Source: Oceanibaculum nanhaiense
GTDB taxonomy: Bacteria; Pseudomonadota; Alphaproteobacteria; Oceanibaculales; Oceanibaculaceae
DNA: 64,000 bases
NCBI RefSeq assembly: GCF_002148795.1
Contig: NZ_MPOB01000004.1
Location: 1 to 64,000 of the forward strand
Direction: 5' to 3'
Part shown: positions 8,768-62,989 of the stretch, piece after piece
How the letters are laid out: each line of letters starts with the position of its first letter
Position numbering within the stretch: position 1 is the stretch's first letter
Program-made: the position numbers and the translations under genes
Notes under the pieces: generated by a model
The model's input: only the letters and a program-made list of their open reading frames with translations
Database searches by the model: none
Told to the model about the DNA's origin: nothing

Positions 8768-10819
8768 TCAGGAGCCGACCACGCCGCCATCCTCGCGGAA
8801 AATCACCAGCGTCGCCGAGCGCGGGATGGCGCTGCCGCCATCCGGCCAGTGGCTGACCAGCTTGCCGGCCGCCCAGTCCTTGGGCGCGGTGGTGGCGCCC
8901 GGATGCTGCACATTCACGAAGATGGTGCGGCCGTCCGGCGTGCCGGTGATGCCGGTGATCTCCTGCCCGATGGGGCCGGTGAGGAAGCGGCGCATCTCGC
9001 CAGTTGCGGGGTCGGCGCACAGCATCTGGTTATTGCCCATGACCGCCATGTCGCCCTTGTTCTGGGCGCTCTCGCCGATATCGGTCTGGATCCACAGCCG
9101 GGCCTCGGAATCGAACCACAGCCCGTCCGGGCAGGCGAAGATGTTGTCGGCGGTCAGCTTCTGGCCGTTCGGACCGCGCCCGGCCTGCTCGTCGCCGCCC
9201 AGCACGAAGATATCCCACTGGAAGCTGGTGGCGGCATGGTCGCCCCTGGCCTCAGTCCAGCGGATGATGTGGCCATACTGGCTCTTGGCGCGCGGGTTGG
9301 CGGGATCGACCTGATCCTCGGTGCGGCGGCTGTTGTTGGTCAGGGTGAAATAGACCGCCCCGGTGCGCGGATCGACCGCCCCCCATTCCGGCCGGTCCAT
9401 CTTGGTCGCCCCGGCCTTGTCGGCGGCGAGGCGGGTGTTCACCAGGATATCGGCCAGATCGGCGAAGCCGTTCTCCGGCGTCAGCCCGTTCTGGCCCGGC
9501 GCCAGCGCCAGCCAGTCGCCGCTGCCATCGGCGTTGAAGCGCGCCACGTAGAGCGTGCCCGCGTCGAGCAGCGCGCCGCTGGCCGTGGTCGGGTCATAGG
9601 GCCGGGCCGAGACGAATTTATAGATATATTCGAAGCGCGCATCGTCGCCGGCATAGGCGACAACTGGCTTGCCTGCGACTGCCGGGGCGAACACCACGCC
9701 CTCATGCGCGAAACGGCCGAGATGGGTGCGCTTTACCGGTGCCTTGCCGGGATCGAAGGGGTCGATCTCGACAACCCAGCCGAAGCCGTTCGGCTCGTTG
9801 CGGTAATCCTCAGCCGCGCTGTCGCCGGTGCTGCTGGCGTCGAAGCGCACATACGCATCGGCACCGCCCTCGGCCAGCTCCCAGCCATAGCGCGACATGC
9901 CGCCGGCCCGCACGCCATAGCGGGCCTGCTCGCGCGGCAGGTTCGGCTTCTGGTCCTGCTGGTCGCCATTGCGGAAATAGCCGGCCCAGTTCTCCTCGGC
10001 CGCCAGATAGGTGTTCCAGGGTGTTACGCCATGGGCGCAATTGTTCAGCGTGCCGCGCGTGCGGGTGCCGTCCGGGCTGTATTTGGTGACAAGATGGGCC
10101 GTGCCGCGCACCGGGCCGGAAATCTCCATCGGCGTCAGTGCGGTGACCCGGCGGTTGTGCGGATCGGATACCACCGCCCAGGCGCCATCGGTGCCGCGCT
10201 TCACGCGCACCACGGAGATGCCGTGCCCGTTCATCTCCTTCAGCACCTCGTCATCCGCGCGCTTGCCGTTCTCCAGCAGCACCTCGCTCGATTTCAGCTC
10301 CTTGCCGGCATAGCGCGCGCTGTGCAGGAAGCGCGGCTCGACATATTCATGGTTCATGACCAGCAACCCGTCGGTCGCGCTGCCGTCGATGGGGAAGAAA
10401 TGCATGCCGTCATGGTGCATGCCCATCTGCTGCGCCTGGTCAGCGCCGCTGTTGGACGGGGCGAAGGCCGGCATGGCGCCGGAGATCGGCGTGCCCCAGG
10501 GCGCCAGCACCTGCACCTTGTAGCCCTTCGGCACCACCACCGTATCGGCGCTGCTGACCGGTACCGACTGGAAGCCGACCAGCCCGCCGGAAGCGGCCTG
10601 CGCGGTCGCGACACGGGCGACGGTATTGAGAGCGGTACCGGCGAACAGCGCGCCAACGGCGGTGGCGAGGCCGCCAACCAGCACGTCGCGGCGTTTCAGC
10701 CGGCTTTCCAGCACATCATGGAAGGTCTCGTTGGCCGACAGATTGCAGCGCGGCTCGTCGCCGGGCTGATAGTCGGGGGATTGGGTGTGATCCGGGTAAT
10801 CCTGTTCATAGGCGCTCAT
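8768..10819 (-). CDS. phoX: PhoX family alkaline phosphatase, Tat-exported
   Basis: The 683-residue protein belongs to the PhoX/DUF839 family of calcium- and iron-dependent periplasmic phosphatases that release phosphate from organic monoesters. A twin-arginine signal is visible: 'KRRDVLVGGLATAVGALFAG' starting at residue 42, long after a hydrophilic N-terminus that is usual for this family. The C-terminal part contains 'FVNVQHPG', a typical PhoX sequence. Length matches full-size PhoX proteins. The start at 10819 has GGAG 7 nt upstream on the coding strand. Two Pho-box-like elements lie 91-131 bp upstream of the start, consistent with induction by PhoB under phosphate starvation. It shares a terminator with the convergent MBL-fold gene. 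Confidence 0.93.
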   Translation of the reverse strand: MSAYEQDYPDHTQSPDYQPGDEPRCNLSANETFHDVLESRLKRRDVLVGGLATAVGALFAGTALNTVARVATAQAASGGLVGFQSVPVSSADTVVVPKGYKVQVLAPWGTPISGAMPAFAPSNSGADQAQQMGMHHDGMHFFPIDGSATDGLLVMNHEYVEPRFLHSARYAGKELKSSEVLLENGKRADDEVLKEMNGHGISVVRVKRGTDGAWAVVSDPHNRRVTALTPMEISGPVRGTAHLVTKYSPDGTRTRGTLNNCAHGVTPWNTYLAAEENWAGYFRNGDQQDQKPNLPREQARYGVRAGGMSRYGWELAEGGADAYVRFDASSTGDSAAEDYRNEPNGFGWVVEIDPFDPGKAPVKRTHLGRFAHEGVVFAPAVAGKPVVAYAGDDARFEYIYKFVSARPYDPTTASGALLDAGTLYVARFNADGSGDWLALAPGQNGLTPENGFADLADILVNTRLAADKAGATKMDRPEWGAVDPRTGAVYFTLTNNSRRTEDQVDPANPRAKSQYGHIIRWTEARGDHAATSFQWDIFVLGGDEQAGRGPNGQKLTADNIFACPDGLWFDSEARLWIQTDIGESAQNKGDMAVMGNNQMLCADPATGEMRRFLTGPIGQEITGITGTPDGRTIFVNVQHPGATTAPKDWAAGKLVSHWPDGGSAIPRSATLVIFREDGGVVGS

Positions 10820-10909
10820 CGGCTTGCTCCGCAGCTAGGAGGGAAAAGCTGCATGGCGGGCCGGTTCGCCGGCACGCTCTGCTTGCAGCTCTCCTTCTAT
10901 CGCCGGGGC

Positions 10910-10950
10910 GTTACAGTTGATTGTCAGCAATGGTGACGGAATGGTGTCAG
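10910..10950 (-). promoter_or_regulatory. Two tandem Pho-box-like PhoB sites upstream of phoX
   Basis: Read on the phoX strand, 10950-10933 is CTGACAC-CATT-CCGTCAC and 10927-10910 is CTGACAA-TCAA-CTGTAAC. Each has two 7-mers resembling CTGTCAT separated by 4 bp, so half-sites repeat every 11 bp within a box, as in the Pho box (consensus CTGTCAT-N4-CTGTCAY). Five bp separate the two boxes. The better box matches 11 of 14 half-site positions. Confidence 0.6.
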
Positions 10951-11048: not shown

Positions 11049-11642
11049 ATGGCCCATGACAAGCGCAATCAGCGGGTGACGGGTCACGGTACCGGCAACG
11101 GCGCCTTTCGCATTGCCGACCGGATGCCTGACGGGATCGATTCCCTGCTGCAGGGCATCCTCGACTATTTCCTGGCCCATCTCCGGGAAAGCGACGCGGT
11201 CATCCGCAAGGCGCAGATCGATCCGCTGGCCTTTCACAAGGCGCTGCCGAAGGTCTGGATCTATGAGCGGATCGCGAAGCATGATTTCGTCTGCCGCCTG
11301 GCCGGCGACGATGTCCGCAGCATGTATGCCCGTCCGATTGTCGGCTGCTCCCTCTTGGACCTGATCCGCGTGCAGCATGCGCCGGACGTGATGGCGCATC
11401 ACGAAGCGATCCTGGCCACGCCGGGCGTCGGCTATATGACGGGCCGCGTCTATCTGCAGAGCCTGGAGCGGTATGGCATCGGCGAACGGCTGCTGCTGCC
11501 GGCACTGGACGAGGAGGGTCGTCCCAGCTTTATCTGGGGCGCCACCAGCTATAACATCGCGGAAATGGATGACAGATCGGATGTCACGGGGCCAAACCGC
11601 CTGCTGATACCGCTCACCGCCTTCTCTGCCGAGTCTTGCTGA
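11049..11642 (+). CDS. PAS_5 domain protein
   Basis: The 197-residue soluble protein matches the PAS_5 type single-domain proteins that are common and multicopy in Rhodospirillales. Visible hallmarks are 'LPKVWIYERIAKHDFVCRLAGDDV' in the middle (about 56-79) and 'YGIGERLLLPALDEEGRP' near residue 145. It has no kinase, GGDEF or DNA-binding output domain. Whether it binds a ligand or is a regulatory adaptor is unknown. The nitronate monooxygenase gene begins 12 bp downstream, so the two are likely co-transcribed. A second PAS_5 protein is encoded at 29749-30303. Confidence 0.8.
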   Translation: MAHDKRNQRVTGHGTGNGAFRIADRMPDGIDSLLQGILDYFLAHLRESDAVIRKAQIDPLAFHKALPKVWIYERIAKHDFVCRLAGDDVRSMYARPIVGCSLLDLIRVQHAPDVMAHHEAILATPGVGYMTGRVYLQSLERYGIGERLLLPALDEEGRPSFIWGATSYNIAEMDDRSDVTGPNRLLIPLTAFSAESC

Positions 11643-23586: not shown

Positions 23587-23631
23587 AAGACGGGCCGTAA
23601 AAACAGCGGTGTTTCCCCGCATGACCGTTTC

Positions 23632-39976: not shown

Positions 39977-41413
39977 ATGACTCGCTTTACCATCGCCATC
40001 GTCGGCCGGCCGAACGTCGGTAAATCGACGCTGTTCAACCGGCTGGCCGGCAAGCAGCTGGCCATCGTCGAGGATACGCCGGGCGTCACCCGCGACTGGC
40101 GCGAGGCGGCGGGCCGGCTCGGGCCGCTGCGCTTCCGGCTGATCGATACTGCCGGTTACGAGGAAAGCTACGATGACAGCCTGCCAGCGCGGATGCGCCA
40201 GCAGACGGAGCGGGCCATCCAGGAGGCCGACCTCACCCTGATGGTGGTGGATGCGCGCGCCGGGCTGACGCCGCTGGACGAGACCTTCTCGCGGCTGTTG
40301 CGCAAGGGCAGCCGGCCGGTCGTGCTTGTCGCCAACAAATGCGAGGGCAGGGCGGGCGAGCCCGGCTTGCTGGAGGCATATTCCCTGGGGCTGGGCGATC
40401 CGATCCCGTTTTCGGCGCAGCATGGCATCGGCCTGTCCGATCTGTATGACGCCATCGTCGCCCATATGCCGGAGGAGCCGGAAGAGCCGGCGGAAGAGGA
40501 TGAGCCGTTGCCGGTGCCAGCGGTGGCCGGTGTAGCGGTCGTGGACGCGGATGGCGTGGAGGTGCTGGATGGCGATTTGCTGCCAGACGATGCGCCCCGC
40601 ATCATCCAGATGGCCATTGTCGGCCGACCGAATGCCGGAAAATCGACGCTGGTGAACCAGCTGCTGGGCGTGGAGCGCATGCTGACCGGCCCGGAGGCCG
40701 GCATCACCCGCGACGCCATCGCCACCGACTGGGAATATGGCGGCCGTCCGGTGCGGCTGGTCGATACCGCCGGCATGCGCCGCAAGGCGCGCATCGACGA
40801 GAAGCTGGAGCAGCTTTCCGTACAGGATACGCTGCGCTCGATCCGCTACGCCCATGTCGTGGTGCTGATGCTGGATGCCGAGCTTGGCATGGACAAGCAG
40901 GACCTCACCATCGCCCGCATGGTGGAGGAGGAGGGGCGCGCGCTCGTCATCGCCTTCAACAAGTGGGACGCCGTCACCGACAAGGAAACCGCGCTGGCCG
41001 ATCTGCGCGACCGGCTGGAAGTCTCCCTCAGCCAGGTCAAGGGCGTGCCGGTGGTGACGTTGTCGGCGCTGAAGGGCCGCAATCTCGACAAGCTGATGGG
41101 GGCCGTCTTCCAGGTCTATGACACCTGGAACCGCCGCGTCTCCACGGCGCAGCTCAATCGCTGGCTGGCCGGCCTTACCGAGATGCATCCGCCGCCGCTG
41201 GTCGCAGGCCGCCGGCTGAAGCTGCGCTACATGACCCAGATCAAGACAAGGCCGCCGACCTTCGCGATCTGGGCCAGCCGGCCGGACGAGCTGCCGGGCA
41301 GCTACCAGCGCTATCTGGTGAACGGGCTGCGGCAGGATTTCGATTTGCCGGGGGTACCGGTCAGGCTCTATCTGCGCAAGGGCCGCAACCCCTATGCCAG
41401 CAAGAAGAAGTAA
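39977..41413 (+). CDS. der: GTPase Der (EngA), ribosome assembly
   Basis: The 478-residue protein has two GTPase domains in tandem, the hallmark of Der: '[11 protein letters not shown]' (8-18) and '[11 protein letters not shown]' near 214-224, each followed by a DTAG motif, and a C-terminal KH-like domain ending 'RNPYASKKK'. Der acts in late maturation of the 50S subunit. An acidic linker ('[14 protein letters not shown]') separates the GTPases. I chose ATG 39977; an in-frame TTG at 39968 has a better-spaced ACAGG upstream and could be the true start. It converges on mltG with 9 bp between stops. Confidence 0.95.
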
Positions 41414-58984: not shown

Positions 58985-59758
58985 TTAAGCGGCGTCGATG
59001 CTTTTCGAGGGCAGCCGGCGCATGAGGGGGTCGATCAAACCGGGGGGCAGCGCCTGCAGCAGCCACACCGCCGCCAGTATCGGCAGCGGGAAGGCGATGC
59101 GGGCCTTGTTGCGGGTCAGCCCGTCGCGGATGATCCGCGCCGCCTTGCCGGCTTCCATCAGGAACGGCATGGGGAAACCGTTGCGGTCGGTCATCGGCGT
59201 GCGGACATAGCCGGGGCAGACCACCGACACCTCGACGCCGCTGCCGGCCAGCATGCCGCGCAGCCCCTCACCATAGATTTTCACGGCGGCTTTGCTGCCA
59301 CAATAGGCGGGCGCGCCGGGGAAGCCCCGGAACCCGGCCATCGACGCCATCAACGCGATCTGACCGTGCCGCCGCGCCTGCATGCGCGGGATCAGCGGCA
59401 GCACCGTGTTCATCACCCCATCGACATTCACCGCGAAGATGCGGCGCACCTGCTCCACCGGCTCGGTATCGCCGCCGGTGCCGGCCGAGATGCCGGCATT
59501 GGCGATAGCCAGGTCGAGGGGCAGCACGTCGTCGCGCGCCAGCATCCAGGCTGCCAGCGCCGCCGCGTCGGTCACGTCCAGCACCGCCGCCTCGACGGCA
59601 GCGCCGCTGGCACGGCATTGCTCCGTCACCGCCTCCAGCCGCGCCGCATCGCGCCCGGTCAGCGCCAGCGTCACGCCGGGGTCGGCATAGGTGCGGGCGA
59701 GTTCCGCGCCGAGGCCGCTGCTGGCCCCGGTGATGAGAATATGCTTCGGGTCGCGCAT
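58985..59758 (-). CDS. SDR family oxidoreductase, acyl-chain-type layout
   Basis: The 257-residue SDR has 'ITGASSGLGAELARTYADPG' (9-28), 'NAGISAG', an active site 'PAYCGSKAAVKIYGEGLRG' (YxxxK intact) and a hydrophobic C-terminal segment ('AVWLLQALPPGLIDPLMRRL') instead of the usual DGG ending. This layout fits membrane-associated SDRs acting on lipids or retinoid-like substrates. It is divergent from yicC, with 85 bp between them that must contain both promoters. Confidence 0.86.
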   Translation of the reverse strand: MRDPKHILITGASSGLGAELARTYADPGVTLALTGRDAARLEAVTEQCRASGAAVEAAVLDVTDAAALAAWMLARDDVLPLDLAIANAGISAGTGGDTEPVEQVRRIFAVNVDGVMNTVLPLIPRMQARRHGQIALMASMAGFRGFPGAPAYCGSKAAVKIYGEGLRGMLAGSGVEVSVVCPGYVRTPMTDRNGFPMPFLMEAGKAARIIRDGLTRNKARIAFPLPILAAVWLLQALPPGLIDPLMRRLPSKSIDAA

Positions 59759-59843
59759 GTGCCTGTCCGGTTGCTGGTGCGGTATTGCGGGGATATAGTG
59801 CCGCCTCCCGCTGCTACCCTACAAGATACAGAGGCAAAACGCT

Positions 59844-60746
59844 GTGAAACCTGGTTCCGCGCCCCTATCCAGCATGACCGGGTTCGCCCGCGCCGAGGGC
59901 CAGCATGACGGGCTCGGCTGGGCCTGGGAGCTGAAATCCGTGAATGGGCGCGGCCTCGATATCCGCACCCGCGCGCCGCAGGGCTTCGAGAGCCTGGAGC
60001 CGCTGGCCCGGCAGAAGCTGGGCGAGGCGCTGAAGCGCGGCAATGTGAATGTCTCGCTCATCGTGGAGCGGCGCGCCGGCGAGGCCGGCATCCGCATCAA
60101 CCGCGCGGTGCTGGATCAGGTGCTGGCCTTGCAGGCGGAACTGGCCGGCAGGGTCGATGCCGCGCCGCCGCGGCTGGACTCGCTGCTCGCCGTGCGCGGT
60201 GTGGTCGAGGCCGGCGAGGAGGATGCCGACGAGGAAGCCCGCGCCGTCCGCGATGCCGATGTCCTGGCCGGGCTGGAACAGGCGGTGAAGGCGCTGGTCA
60301 CCTCGCGGCTGGAGGAGGGGGCAAGGTTGGCCGCCATGCTGACCGGCCATCTCGACCGTATCGAGGAACTGACCACGCAGGCCAAGGCGCTGGGGTCGGT
60401 GCAGCCGGAGGCGCTGAAGGCGCGGCTGCGCCAGCAGGTGCTGGAACTGCTGGAGGCTTCTCCGGCGCTGAACGAGGACCGGCTGGCGCAGGAGGCGGCG
60501 CTGCTTGCCACCAAGGCCGACATCCGCGAGGAGCTGGACCGGCTGGCCGCCCATATCGCCGCCGCGCGCGAGCTGATGCAGGCCGGCAGCCAGATCGGCC
60601 GGCGCTTCGACTTCTTGTGCCAGGAATTCAACCGCGAGGCCAACACGCTTTGTTCCAAGTCCGGCGATACCGAGCTGACGCGCATCGGGCTGGAGCTGAA
60701 GGCGGTGATCGATCAGCTGAAGGAACAGGTGCAGAATGTCGAGTGA
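59844..60746 (+). CDS. yicC: YicC family endoribonuclease
   Basis: The 300-residue protein begins near 'SSMTGFARAEG' and ends 'IGLELKAVIDQLKEQVQNVE', both conserved in YicC/YloC endoribonucleases. Between them lies 'QEFNREANTLCSKSGD'. YicC degrades certain small RNAs in E. coli. The GTG start at 59844 has GAGG upstream; ATG 59874 is an alternative inside the conserved region. It overlaps gmk by 11 bp, the usual yicC-gmk order in alphaproteobacteria. Confidence 0.93.
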   Translation: MKPGSAPLSSMTGFARAEGQHDGLGWAWELKSVNGRGLDIRTRAPQGFESLEPLARQKLGEALKRGNVNVSLIVERRAGEAGIRINRAVLDQVLALQAELAGRVDAAPPRLDSLLAVRGVVEAGEEDADEEARAVRDADVLAGLEQAVKALVTSRLEEGARLAAMLTGHLDRIEELTTQAKALGSVQPEALKARLRQQVLELLEASPALNEDRLAQEAALLATKADIREELDRLAAHIAAARELMQAGSQIGRRFDFLCQEFNREANTLCSKSGDTELTRIGLELKAVIDQLKEQVQNVE

Positions 60747-61410
60747 GGCATCTCTCGGCGCCGGCAGCCAGGGATCGGATATCCACCGGCGCGGCCTGAT
60801 GCTGGTTCTGTCCTCGCCTTCCGGTGCCGGCAAGACCAGCATTTCCCGCCGGCTGCTGCAGGAGGAAAGCCGGCTCGCCATGTCGGTTTCGGTCACGACC
60901 CGGCCGCCGCGTCCGGGCGAGGTGGACGGCAAGGATTATCACTTCATCGACCTGCCGCGCTTCGACGCGATGGTGGCGGCGGACGAGTTGCTGGAGCATG
61001 CAAGGGTGTTCGGCAATTGCTACGGCACGCCGCGCGCGGCGGTGGAAACCGCGCTGTCCGCCGGCAACGACATCCTGTTCGACGTCGATTGGCAGGGCAC
61101 GCAGCAACTGAACGAGAAGGTGCCGCAGGATGTGGTCAGCGTCTTCATCCTGCCGCCCTCGCAGGAGGAGCTTGAGCGCCGGCTGCGCAGCCGCGCGCAG
61201 GATTCCGAGGAAGTGGTGACCGGCCGCATGCGCAAGGCAGCGGATGAGATCAGCCACTGGTCAGAATATGATTATGTCATCGTGAACGAGGATCTGGAGC
61301 GCAGCGTCGCCGATGTGCGCGCCATCCTGCGCGGCGAGCGGCTGAAGCGCGAGCGCCAGACTGGAATCGGCGATTTCGTGCGCCGGATCATTGCCTCCGC
61401 GCCGAACTGA
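60736..61410 (+). CDS. gmk: Guanylate kinase
   Basis: The 224-residue kinase phosphorylates GMP to GDP. The P-loop is 'SSPSGAGKTS' (26-35), and 'VSVTTRPPRPGEVDGKDYHFI' binds GMP. 'FDVDWQGTQQL' near 114 and 'RLRSRAQDS' near 150 complete the set. An N-terminal extension of about 18 residues precedes the core. It overlaps the yicC stop by 11 bp, suggesting coupled translation. phoD starts 10 bp after its stop. Confidence 0.96.
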   Translation: MSSEASLGAGSQGSDIHRRGLMLVLSSPSGAGKTSISRRLLQEESRLAMSVSVTTRPPRPGEVDGKDYHFIDLPRFDAMVAADELLEHARVFGNCYGTPRAAVETALSAGNDILFDVDWQGTQQLNEKVPQDVVSVFILPPSQEELERRLRSRAQDSEEVVTGRMRKAADEISHWSEYDYVIVNEDLERSVADVRAILRGERLKRERQTGIGDFVRRIIASAPN

Positions 61411-61420
61411 GGGTCTTTCC

Positions 61421-62989
61421 ATGCCTGTGCTTCTGCCGGTTTCCCGCCGCACCCTGCTGATCGGCTCGGCGGCCGGCGCCGCCCTGCTGGCGCGCCCGGC
61501 GATCCTGCGTGCCGCCGAGGTGCGGTTCGAGGATGATCCCTTTACGCTGGGCGTGGCCTCGGGCTGCCCGCGTCCCGACAGCGTGGTGCTGTGGACCCGC
61601 CTCGTGCCCAAGGCGGAGGAGGCGGGCGGTAGCCTGTTCGCCGCCGCGCCGCCGGCGCTGGAAGGGCCGGTCGAGGTGGACTGGGAACTGGCGCATGACG
61701 AGGGCTTTCAACGCATCGCCGCCAAAGGCACCGCGCTGGCGACCGACGACTGGGGCCATTCCGTCCATGTCGAGGTGACCGGTCTGGAGCCGGGGCGCTG
61801 GTATTTCTACCGCTTCATTGCCGGCGGGCAGCAGAGCCCGGCGGGCCGCACCCGCACCGCGCCGGCCCTGGGGGCGGCGACGGACAGGCTGCGCCTCGCC
61901 TTCGCCTCCTGCCAGCAATATGAGCATGGCTATTTCACCGCCTTCCGCCATATGGCCGCGCAGGATTTCGACCTGATCGTGCATCTTGGCGACTACATCT
62001 ACGAGATGTCCTGGGGCAAGAAATATGTCCGCCAGCATGGCACCGGTATTCCCACGCAGCTCTGGGAGTTCCGTGACCGCTACGCCCTTTACAAGTCCGA
62101 CCCGGACCTGATGGCAGCCCATGCGGCGGCCCCCTGGCTGGCGATCTGGGACGATCACGAGGTTGCCAATAATTACGCCGACGATCACTCGCCGAAGACG
62201 AAGCAGCCGGGCCAGTTTCTCGATATCCGCGCCGCCGCCTATCAGGCCTGGTACGAGCATATGCCGGTGCCGCCTTCGATGGCGCCCCAAGGGCCGTCCC
62301 TGCGGATTTATGACCGCTACCGCTTCGGCGATCTCCTGGATATGACGCTGCTGGACGACCGGCAGTACCGCTCGCCGCATCCCTGCGGCATCAACAAATC
62401 CGGCGGGGCCAGTTGCGATGAGCGCTTCGATCCGGCGCGCAGCCTGCTGGGGCGGGAGCAGGAAGCCTGGCTGGATGGCGCGCTGCAGGATGCGCAGGGG
62501 CGCTGGACGCTGGTCGCGCAGCAGACGCTGGTGTCGGAGCTGGACCGCGAGCCGGGGCCGGGCAGGGCCTATGCGCTGGATGGCTGGGACGGCTATGTCG
62601 CCAGCCGTGACCGGCTGCTGTCCGCCATCGAGACGCACAAGCCGGCCAATCCGCTGGTGATCGGCGGCGATGTACACGCCTTCTGGGTGTCCGACCTGAA
62701 GAAGGATTTCCAGAATCCTTCCTCGCCGACGCTGGCGACCGAGGTGGTCTGTACCTCGGTCAGCTCGCAGGGGCCGAGTGCCAAGACCATGCAGGCCGGC
62801 CGCGAGGACAATCCGCATATCCGCTACGGGCGCGGCGACAAGCGCGGCTATGCCAGCCTCGATCTCACGCCGAAACAGGCGCTGTTCGGGCTGGAGGCGG
62901 TGGATAGCGTGGAGCGACCGGACGGCACCGTCTCGCGGCTCGCCAGCTTCGCGGTCGAGGCCGGCAAGGCCGGCGCGCAGCCGGCCTAG
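61421..62989 (+). CDS. phoD: PhoD family alkaline phosphatase/phosphodiesterase, Tat signal
   Basis: The 522-residue protein has a twin-arginine signal 'SRRTLLIGSAAGAALLA' (RR at 9-10) and the PhoD-like metallophosphatase domain. Metal-binding segments are 'FASCQQYEHGYF', 'HLGDYIYE', 'WDDHEVANNYADD' and 'IGGDVHAFW'. It is the calcium/iron-dependent periplasmic type that hydrolyses phosphomonoesters and diesters. Starting at 61421, it lies 10 bp after gmk without an obvious Pho box. Its stop overlaps that of the convergent hydrolase gene. Confidence 0.93.
   Translation: MPVLLPVSRRTLLIGSAAGAALLARPAILRAAEVRFEDDPFTLGVASGCPRPDSVVLWTRLVPKAEEAGGSLFAAAPPALEGPVEVDWELAHDEGFQRIAAKGTALATDDWGHSVHVEVTGLEPGRWYFYRFIAGGQQSPAGRTRTAPALGAATDRLRLAFASCQQYEHGYFTAFRHMAAQDFDLIVHLGDYIYEMSWGKKYVRQHGTGIPTQLWEFRDRYALYKSDPDLMAAHAAAPWLAIWDDHEVANNYADDHSPKTKQPGQFLDIRAAAYQAWYEHMPVPPSMAPQGPSLRIYDRYRFGDLLDMTLLDDRQYRSPHPCGINKSGGASCDERFDPARSLLGREQEAWLDGALQDAQGRWTLVAQQTLVSELDREPGPGRAYALDGWDGYVASRDRLLSAIETHKPANPLVIGGDVHAFWVSDLKKDFQNPSSPTLATEVVCTSVSSQGPSAKTMQAGREDNPHIRYGRGDKRGYASLDLTPKQALFGLEAVDSVERPDGTVSRLASFAVEAGKAGAQPA

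Follow-up and report, generated by a model that had tools for sequence, protein, structure and literature searches.

A probable PhoB-activated phoX promoter with a 12-bp central step in its heptamer array in Oceanibaculum nanhaiense

In the known layout of Pho promoters, the Pho box stands in for the -35 element. In the E. coli pstS promoter, exactly 10 bp separate four heptamers arranged head-to-tail from the -10 hexamer, and the E. coli phoA promoter carries a Pho box before an alkaline phosphatase gene, again at 10 bp from the -10; PhoA and PhoX belong to unrelated families. Excerpts of PMC3131613 and PMC4415409 describe the Pho box as direct heptamer repeats close to CTGTCAT, and in the fusion assays reported in an excerpt of PMC5127829, phoX of Sinorhizobium meliloti depends on PhoB and on low phosphate.

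We analysed the region upstream of phoX in Oceanibaculum nanhaiense, within a window of 64,000 nucleotides, which is the whole stretch of DNA considered here (contig NZ_MPOB01000004.1, positions 1 to 64,000). Like the E. coli pstS promoter, it has four head-to-tail heptamers, exactly 10 bp and a -10-like hexamer, with heptamer steps of 11/12/11 bp as against 11/11/11 in E. coli (read off its sequence). E. coli phoA has one dimer, whereas this phoX has two. The control of S. meliloti phoX is experimental, whereas the present gene is likened to it from sequence alone. In a Natronohydrobacter sp. MAG, whose PhoX is the first among the matches listed (69% protein identity), four heptamer-like repeats also precede phoX; unlike those of the window, they run at 11/11/11 and their best dimer reaches only 7.2 bits. 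The features of the locus are as follows, mismatches being counted against CTGTCAY and bits given by an E. coli ChIP-seq PhoB matrix.

8768-10819, minus strand: phoX, encoding alkaline phosphatase PhoX, 683 aa (open reading frame; PF05787, 1.9e-161)
10894-10899, minus strand: -10-like hexamer TAGAAG, 4/6 matches to TATAAT, exactly 10 bp past the last heptamer
10910-10927, minus strand: promoter-proximal candidate Pho box dimer CTGACAA-TCAA-CTGTAAC, 10.7 bits, rank 8 in the window
10910-10916, minus strand: heptamer 4, CTGTAAC, 1 mismatch
10921-10927, minus strand: heptamer 3, CTGACAA, 2 mismatches
10928-10932, minus strand: central spacer CATTG, 5 bp (12-bp step), with the same sequence in the sister species
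10933-10950, minus strand: upstream candidate Pho box dimer CTGACAC-CATT-CCGTCAC, 14.4 bits, rank 1 in the window
10933-10939, minus strand: heptamer 2, CCGTCAC, 1 mismatch
10944-10950, minus strand: heptamer 1, CTGACAC, 1 mismatch

PF05787 spans PhoX in full (profile positions 2-515 of 515, 539 bits), and its N-terminus is twin-arginine-like when judged by eye from the sequence (..LKRRDVLVGG..). Read on the minus strand from 10950 to 10910, toward phoX, the array is CTGACAC CATT CCGTCAC CATTG CTGACAA TCAA CTGTAAC, with spacers of 4, 5 and 4 bp. The first-pass annotation had described four CTGTCAT-like heptamers upstream of phoX at steps of 11, 12 and 11 bp; coordinates and steps prove exact, and the heptamers lie on the minus strand, the orientation needed to serve phoX. 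Both dimers contain the 11-bp repeat (7 + 4 bp), and the repeats point at phoX with 10 bp left before the -10-like hexamer.

A chain of four heptamers (steps of 10 to 12 bp, at most 2 mismatches each and at most 5 in total) has a single instance in the window, and 300 dinucleotide shuffles produced no such chain. With up to 7 mismatches in total, the single occurrence compares with a mean of 0.15 per shuffle. The lone dimer CTGTCAYN4CTGTCAY, allowing at most 3 mismatches, is not above chance in the window (9 matches, 10.8 expected), and we set this single-dimer consensus scan aside as uninformative. It is the tandem arrangement, not the single dimer, that carries the significance of the phoX array.

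A scan with a PhoB matrix and a comparison with relatives had been proposed as checks in the first-pass annotation, and both were run. With a matrix built from 59 E. coli ChIP-seq sites, as tabulated in Table 1 of PMC10294691, the phoX dimers stand well above background: they rank 1 and 8 among 127,966 positions (both strands of the window), and the pair sums to 25.1 bits, against 10.4 for the runner-up among pairs 22-24 bp apart. A matrix made from 12 pstS and phoU sites of the genus, a small training set with one site included twice, ranks them merely 13th and 19th in the window, which counts against the Pho box reading. These ranks and the unremarkable number of single dimers are what speaks for a chance resemblance of the array to Pho boxes. 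Given the 0/300 shuffles, the pair score, the -10 spacing and the layout shared with the sister species, we consider such a coincidence extremely unlikely.

We also scanned the four genomes of the genus for a composite of two half-sites, 10 bp and TANNW. It gave 30 matches against 20 for a reversed control, which we counted on the negative side. In the O. nanhaiense genome there are 13 matches (7 for the reversed control), three of which are phoX, phoU and pstS; the pattern has no match at phoX of the sister species or at the boxes of the two other genomes. Elsewhere in the window, isolated single PhoB-like dimers with high scores lie at 41106, 23620 and 24455, all on the minus strand; the latter two sit within ORF-dense stretches, with no -10-like hexamer at 10 bp. 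Single sites of at least 10.6 bits at 23620, 24455, 18552, 23943, 37793, 18154 and 441 were rejected as Pho promoters because no hexamer starting with TA follows 10 bp on.

Outside the genus, we considered 80 phoX loci, the best 80 among the matches listed, from named genomes. A forward site of at least 10 bits lies up to 400 bp upstream of phoX in 39 of them (three loci, L045, L053 and L058, offered less than 400 bp), the other 41 remaining below 10 bits; in the controls, such sites were seen on the other strand in 7/80 loci and in 3/316 stretches in and just past phoX. Among the 37 phoX promoters whose best site has at least 10 bits within 250 bp upstream (the other 43 loci were dropped), 18 show at least 4/6 matches to TATAAT in the hexamer that begins 10 bp on; elsewhere between 0 and 30 bp, no gap gives more than 2 of 37, so that a gap of 10 is the only peak. 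At this gap, E. coli phoA has TATAGT, E. coli pstS TATTTT and the window phoX TAGAAG. The O. nanhaiense pstS (TAAGAA) and phoU (TATTTA) hexamers reach 3/6 at gap 10, and phoU has a 4/6 hexamer at gap 7.

The same 80 loci bear on the central step of the array. In upstream regions of up to 250 bp, pairs of half-sites of at least 4 bits number 30, 18 and 16 at 11, 22 and 33 bp, against 2, 1 and 2 at 12, 23 and 34 bp and between 0 and 7 at each remaining distance. In 27/80 of these regions and 4/240 control stretches, at least three half-sites form a chain, and 55 of the 69 steps within the phoX chains are of 11 bp, 4 of 12 bp. The central 12-bp step is thus unusual, 11 bp being the preferred step in the phoX arrays of other genomes. 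O. nanhaiense and its sister species both have their two dimers 23 bp apart, out of step with tandem boxes in one row such as those of E. coli pstS, where successive dimers follow at 22 bp in 11-bp phase; a single Pho box does not require this phasing. Most probably, the 23-bp spacing reflects two adjacent dimers and not a continuous row. We think it unlikely that the extra base, common to both phoX-bearing species of the genus, is functional; if it were, the second PhoB dimer would be rotated around the helix axis by roughly a tenth of a turn and the head-to-tail row would be broken, and phoX might respond less cooperatively, or at another phosphate level, than the 11-bp pstS array.

Genus, family and order comprise the same four genomes (G000, that of O. 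nanhaiense, to G003), and phoX is found in two of them, G000 and the sister species G001. The G002 and G003 assemblies are 91 and 93% complete, so the absence of phoX there may reflect an assembly gap. G001 keeps all four heptamer positions and the CATTG spacer. Its third heptamer has decayed to CCGACGG (4 mismatches), its last reads CTGTCAT, and the upstream dimer there reaches 12.8 bits, the proximal one 2.2 bits. When the nine changes between the two species were placed at random, a score at least equal to that of G001 was reached in 8.3% of 20,000 trials; with a fraction of 0.083, the test gives no significant evidence that the box score is under selection. Identity to G001 is 32/41 in the array, 81/94 alignment columns in the phoX-side leader and 52/98 on the far side. 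The array is therefore no better conserved than the leader, though better than the far side, and it leaves no sharp conservation footprint.

These data qualify the earlier proposal of two tandem PhoB dimer sites. The array and the matrix ranks of 1 and 8 speak for it; the second site fares less well, because the proximal dimer is weaker and its first half has decayed in G001, so that one good dimer and an anchor half-site may stand in place of the proposed "two dimer sites". Along this line, PhoB might use heptamers 1, 2 and 4, the third being a relic and the 12-bp step without function. The third heptamer, with 2 mismatches here and 4 in G001, where the last one is CTGTCAT, would fit such a relic, as would the prevalence of 11-bp steps in phoX arrays elsewhere. 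However, in O. nanhaiense this heptamer still scores 3.3 bits with a soft half-site matrix, and the proximal dimer ranks 8th in the window. We therefore regard the relic as possible but doubtful, and keep two neighbouring dimers as the preferred reading.

The intergenic region is shared with a divergent gene:

11049-11642, plus strand: gene with a PAS_5 domain (PF07310, 1.7e-09)

The array lies about 100 bp ahead of this gene and might also, or mainly, serve it. The gene adjoins phoX in G001 as well and has no match in G002 or G003 at E 1e-20, so that the PAS_5 gene and phoX occur together in G000 and G001 and no match to either is seen in the two other genomes. On the other hand, the repeats and the -10 at 10 bp face the phoX side, and Pho boxes precede phoX in loci with no detectable PAS_5 relative (a tblastn search of the 80 loci outside the genus gave none at E 1e-3). 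The PAS_5 gene as the real target of the array thus finds little support, and we consider a role of the array at this gene quite unlikely, phoX remaining the preferred target.

The genome encodes the matching regulator. phoR, phoU and phoB stand side by side; PhoB (TIGR02154, 351.9 bits) and PhoU exceed their curated cut-offs, and PhoR, with 326.6 bits, is slightly under its cut-off of 334.2 bits. PhoB shares 53% identity with its E. coli counterpart, and the two proteins do not differ at all in R193-L206, which we take to be the DNA recognition helix. Pho boxes occur before phoU (15.3-20.2 bits) and before pstS (best site 15.75-17.2 bits) in 4/4 genomes of the genus, the PhoU and PstS families being confirmed by search in G000 only and the ORFs of G001-G003 named by look. 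The steps of the O. nanhaiense pstS box are of 11 bp.

PhoB is not the only regulator associated with TGACA-type repeats, and in this genome the PhoB model matches 30 response regulators and receiver domains, of which only one is over the cut-off. Another regulator of the OmpR family could in principle use the repeats instead of PhoB. Such a substitution appears very unlikely in view of the match to an experimental PhoB matrix, the same kind of boxes before pstS and phoU in this genome, and the phosphatase encoded by the downstream gene.

The second phosphatase gene of the window offers a contrast:

61421-62989, plus strand: phoD, second phosphatase, with no Pho box (NF058638, 1.6e-144, 482 bits, under the 1000-bit cut-off)

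Its start at 61421 is that of the first-pass annotation, inside an ORF from 61391, and with this start assumed phoD lies 10 bp behind gmk (TIGR03263, over its cut-off). Upstream of phoD, on the forward strand of 59501-61430, the best site has just 4.7 bits; around phoD in the three other genomes of the genus, the two strands searched with flanks of up to 1.5 kb give at best 4.9, 7.9 and 3.2 bits. The earlier statement that phoD shows no such site is thus borne out, and none of the four species has a comparable one upstream of phoD. In sequence, the contrast with phoX is confirmed, and the missing box suggests that phoX and phoD would be regulated differently.

Taken together, the array, its matrix ranks, the -10 gap, the PhoB helix, the phoU and pstS boxes, the relatives and the phoD contrast indicate that phoX very probably is a PhoB-activated gene, a known situation; we have high confidence in PhoB activation of its promoter. 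The sequence gives good support for describing the array as a PhoB-activated phoX promoter of the ordinary kind, with a slight change in spacing. On low phosphate, PhoR would phosphorylate PhoB, and PhoB dimers would bind the direct repeats 10950-10910 head-to-tail, replacing the -35 element. Bound PhoB would then recruit sigma-70 RNA polymerase to the predicted -10 hexamer 10899-10894, and the phosphatase PhoX would be produced and probably exported. The "strong" phosphate control expected at first pass is likewise a prediction read from the DNA. This would place a phosphatase of a little-sampled lineage (four genomes, whether counted at the level of genus, family or order) in the Pho regulon. 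In the array, candidate tandem PhoB sites occur naturally with their spacing changed by one base; the rest repeats known facts about phoX.

Some observations concern neighbouring and related genes. In window positions 59844-62989, a gene of the YicC/YloC endoribonuclease family (TIGR00255, over its cut-off) overlaps the guanylate kinase gene by 11 bases. With phoD 10 bp behind gmk, this suggests that the three genes form one operon. A strong Pho box of 19.6 bits lies between phoR and phoU (locus L095, 8630-8647; contig C1 of G000, about 176629) and has a counterpart in all four genomes of the genus, which suggests a separate PhoB-driven promoter for phoU-phoB. The pst genes of O. nanhaiense are located away from phoR-phoU-phoB, on contig C8. 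In G002, the gene behind the pst box (L108, 12135-13181) seems, by eye, to encode a PstS of another type than that of G000 and is followed by PstC-, PstA- and PstB-like ORFs. Two kinds of pst locus appear to exist within the genus.
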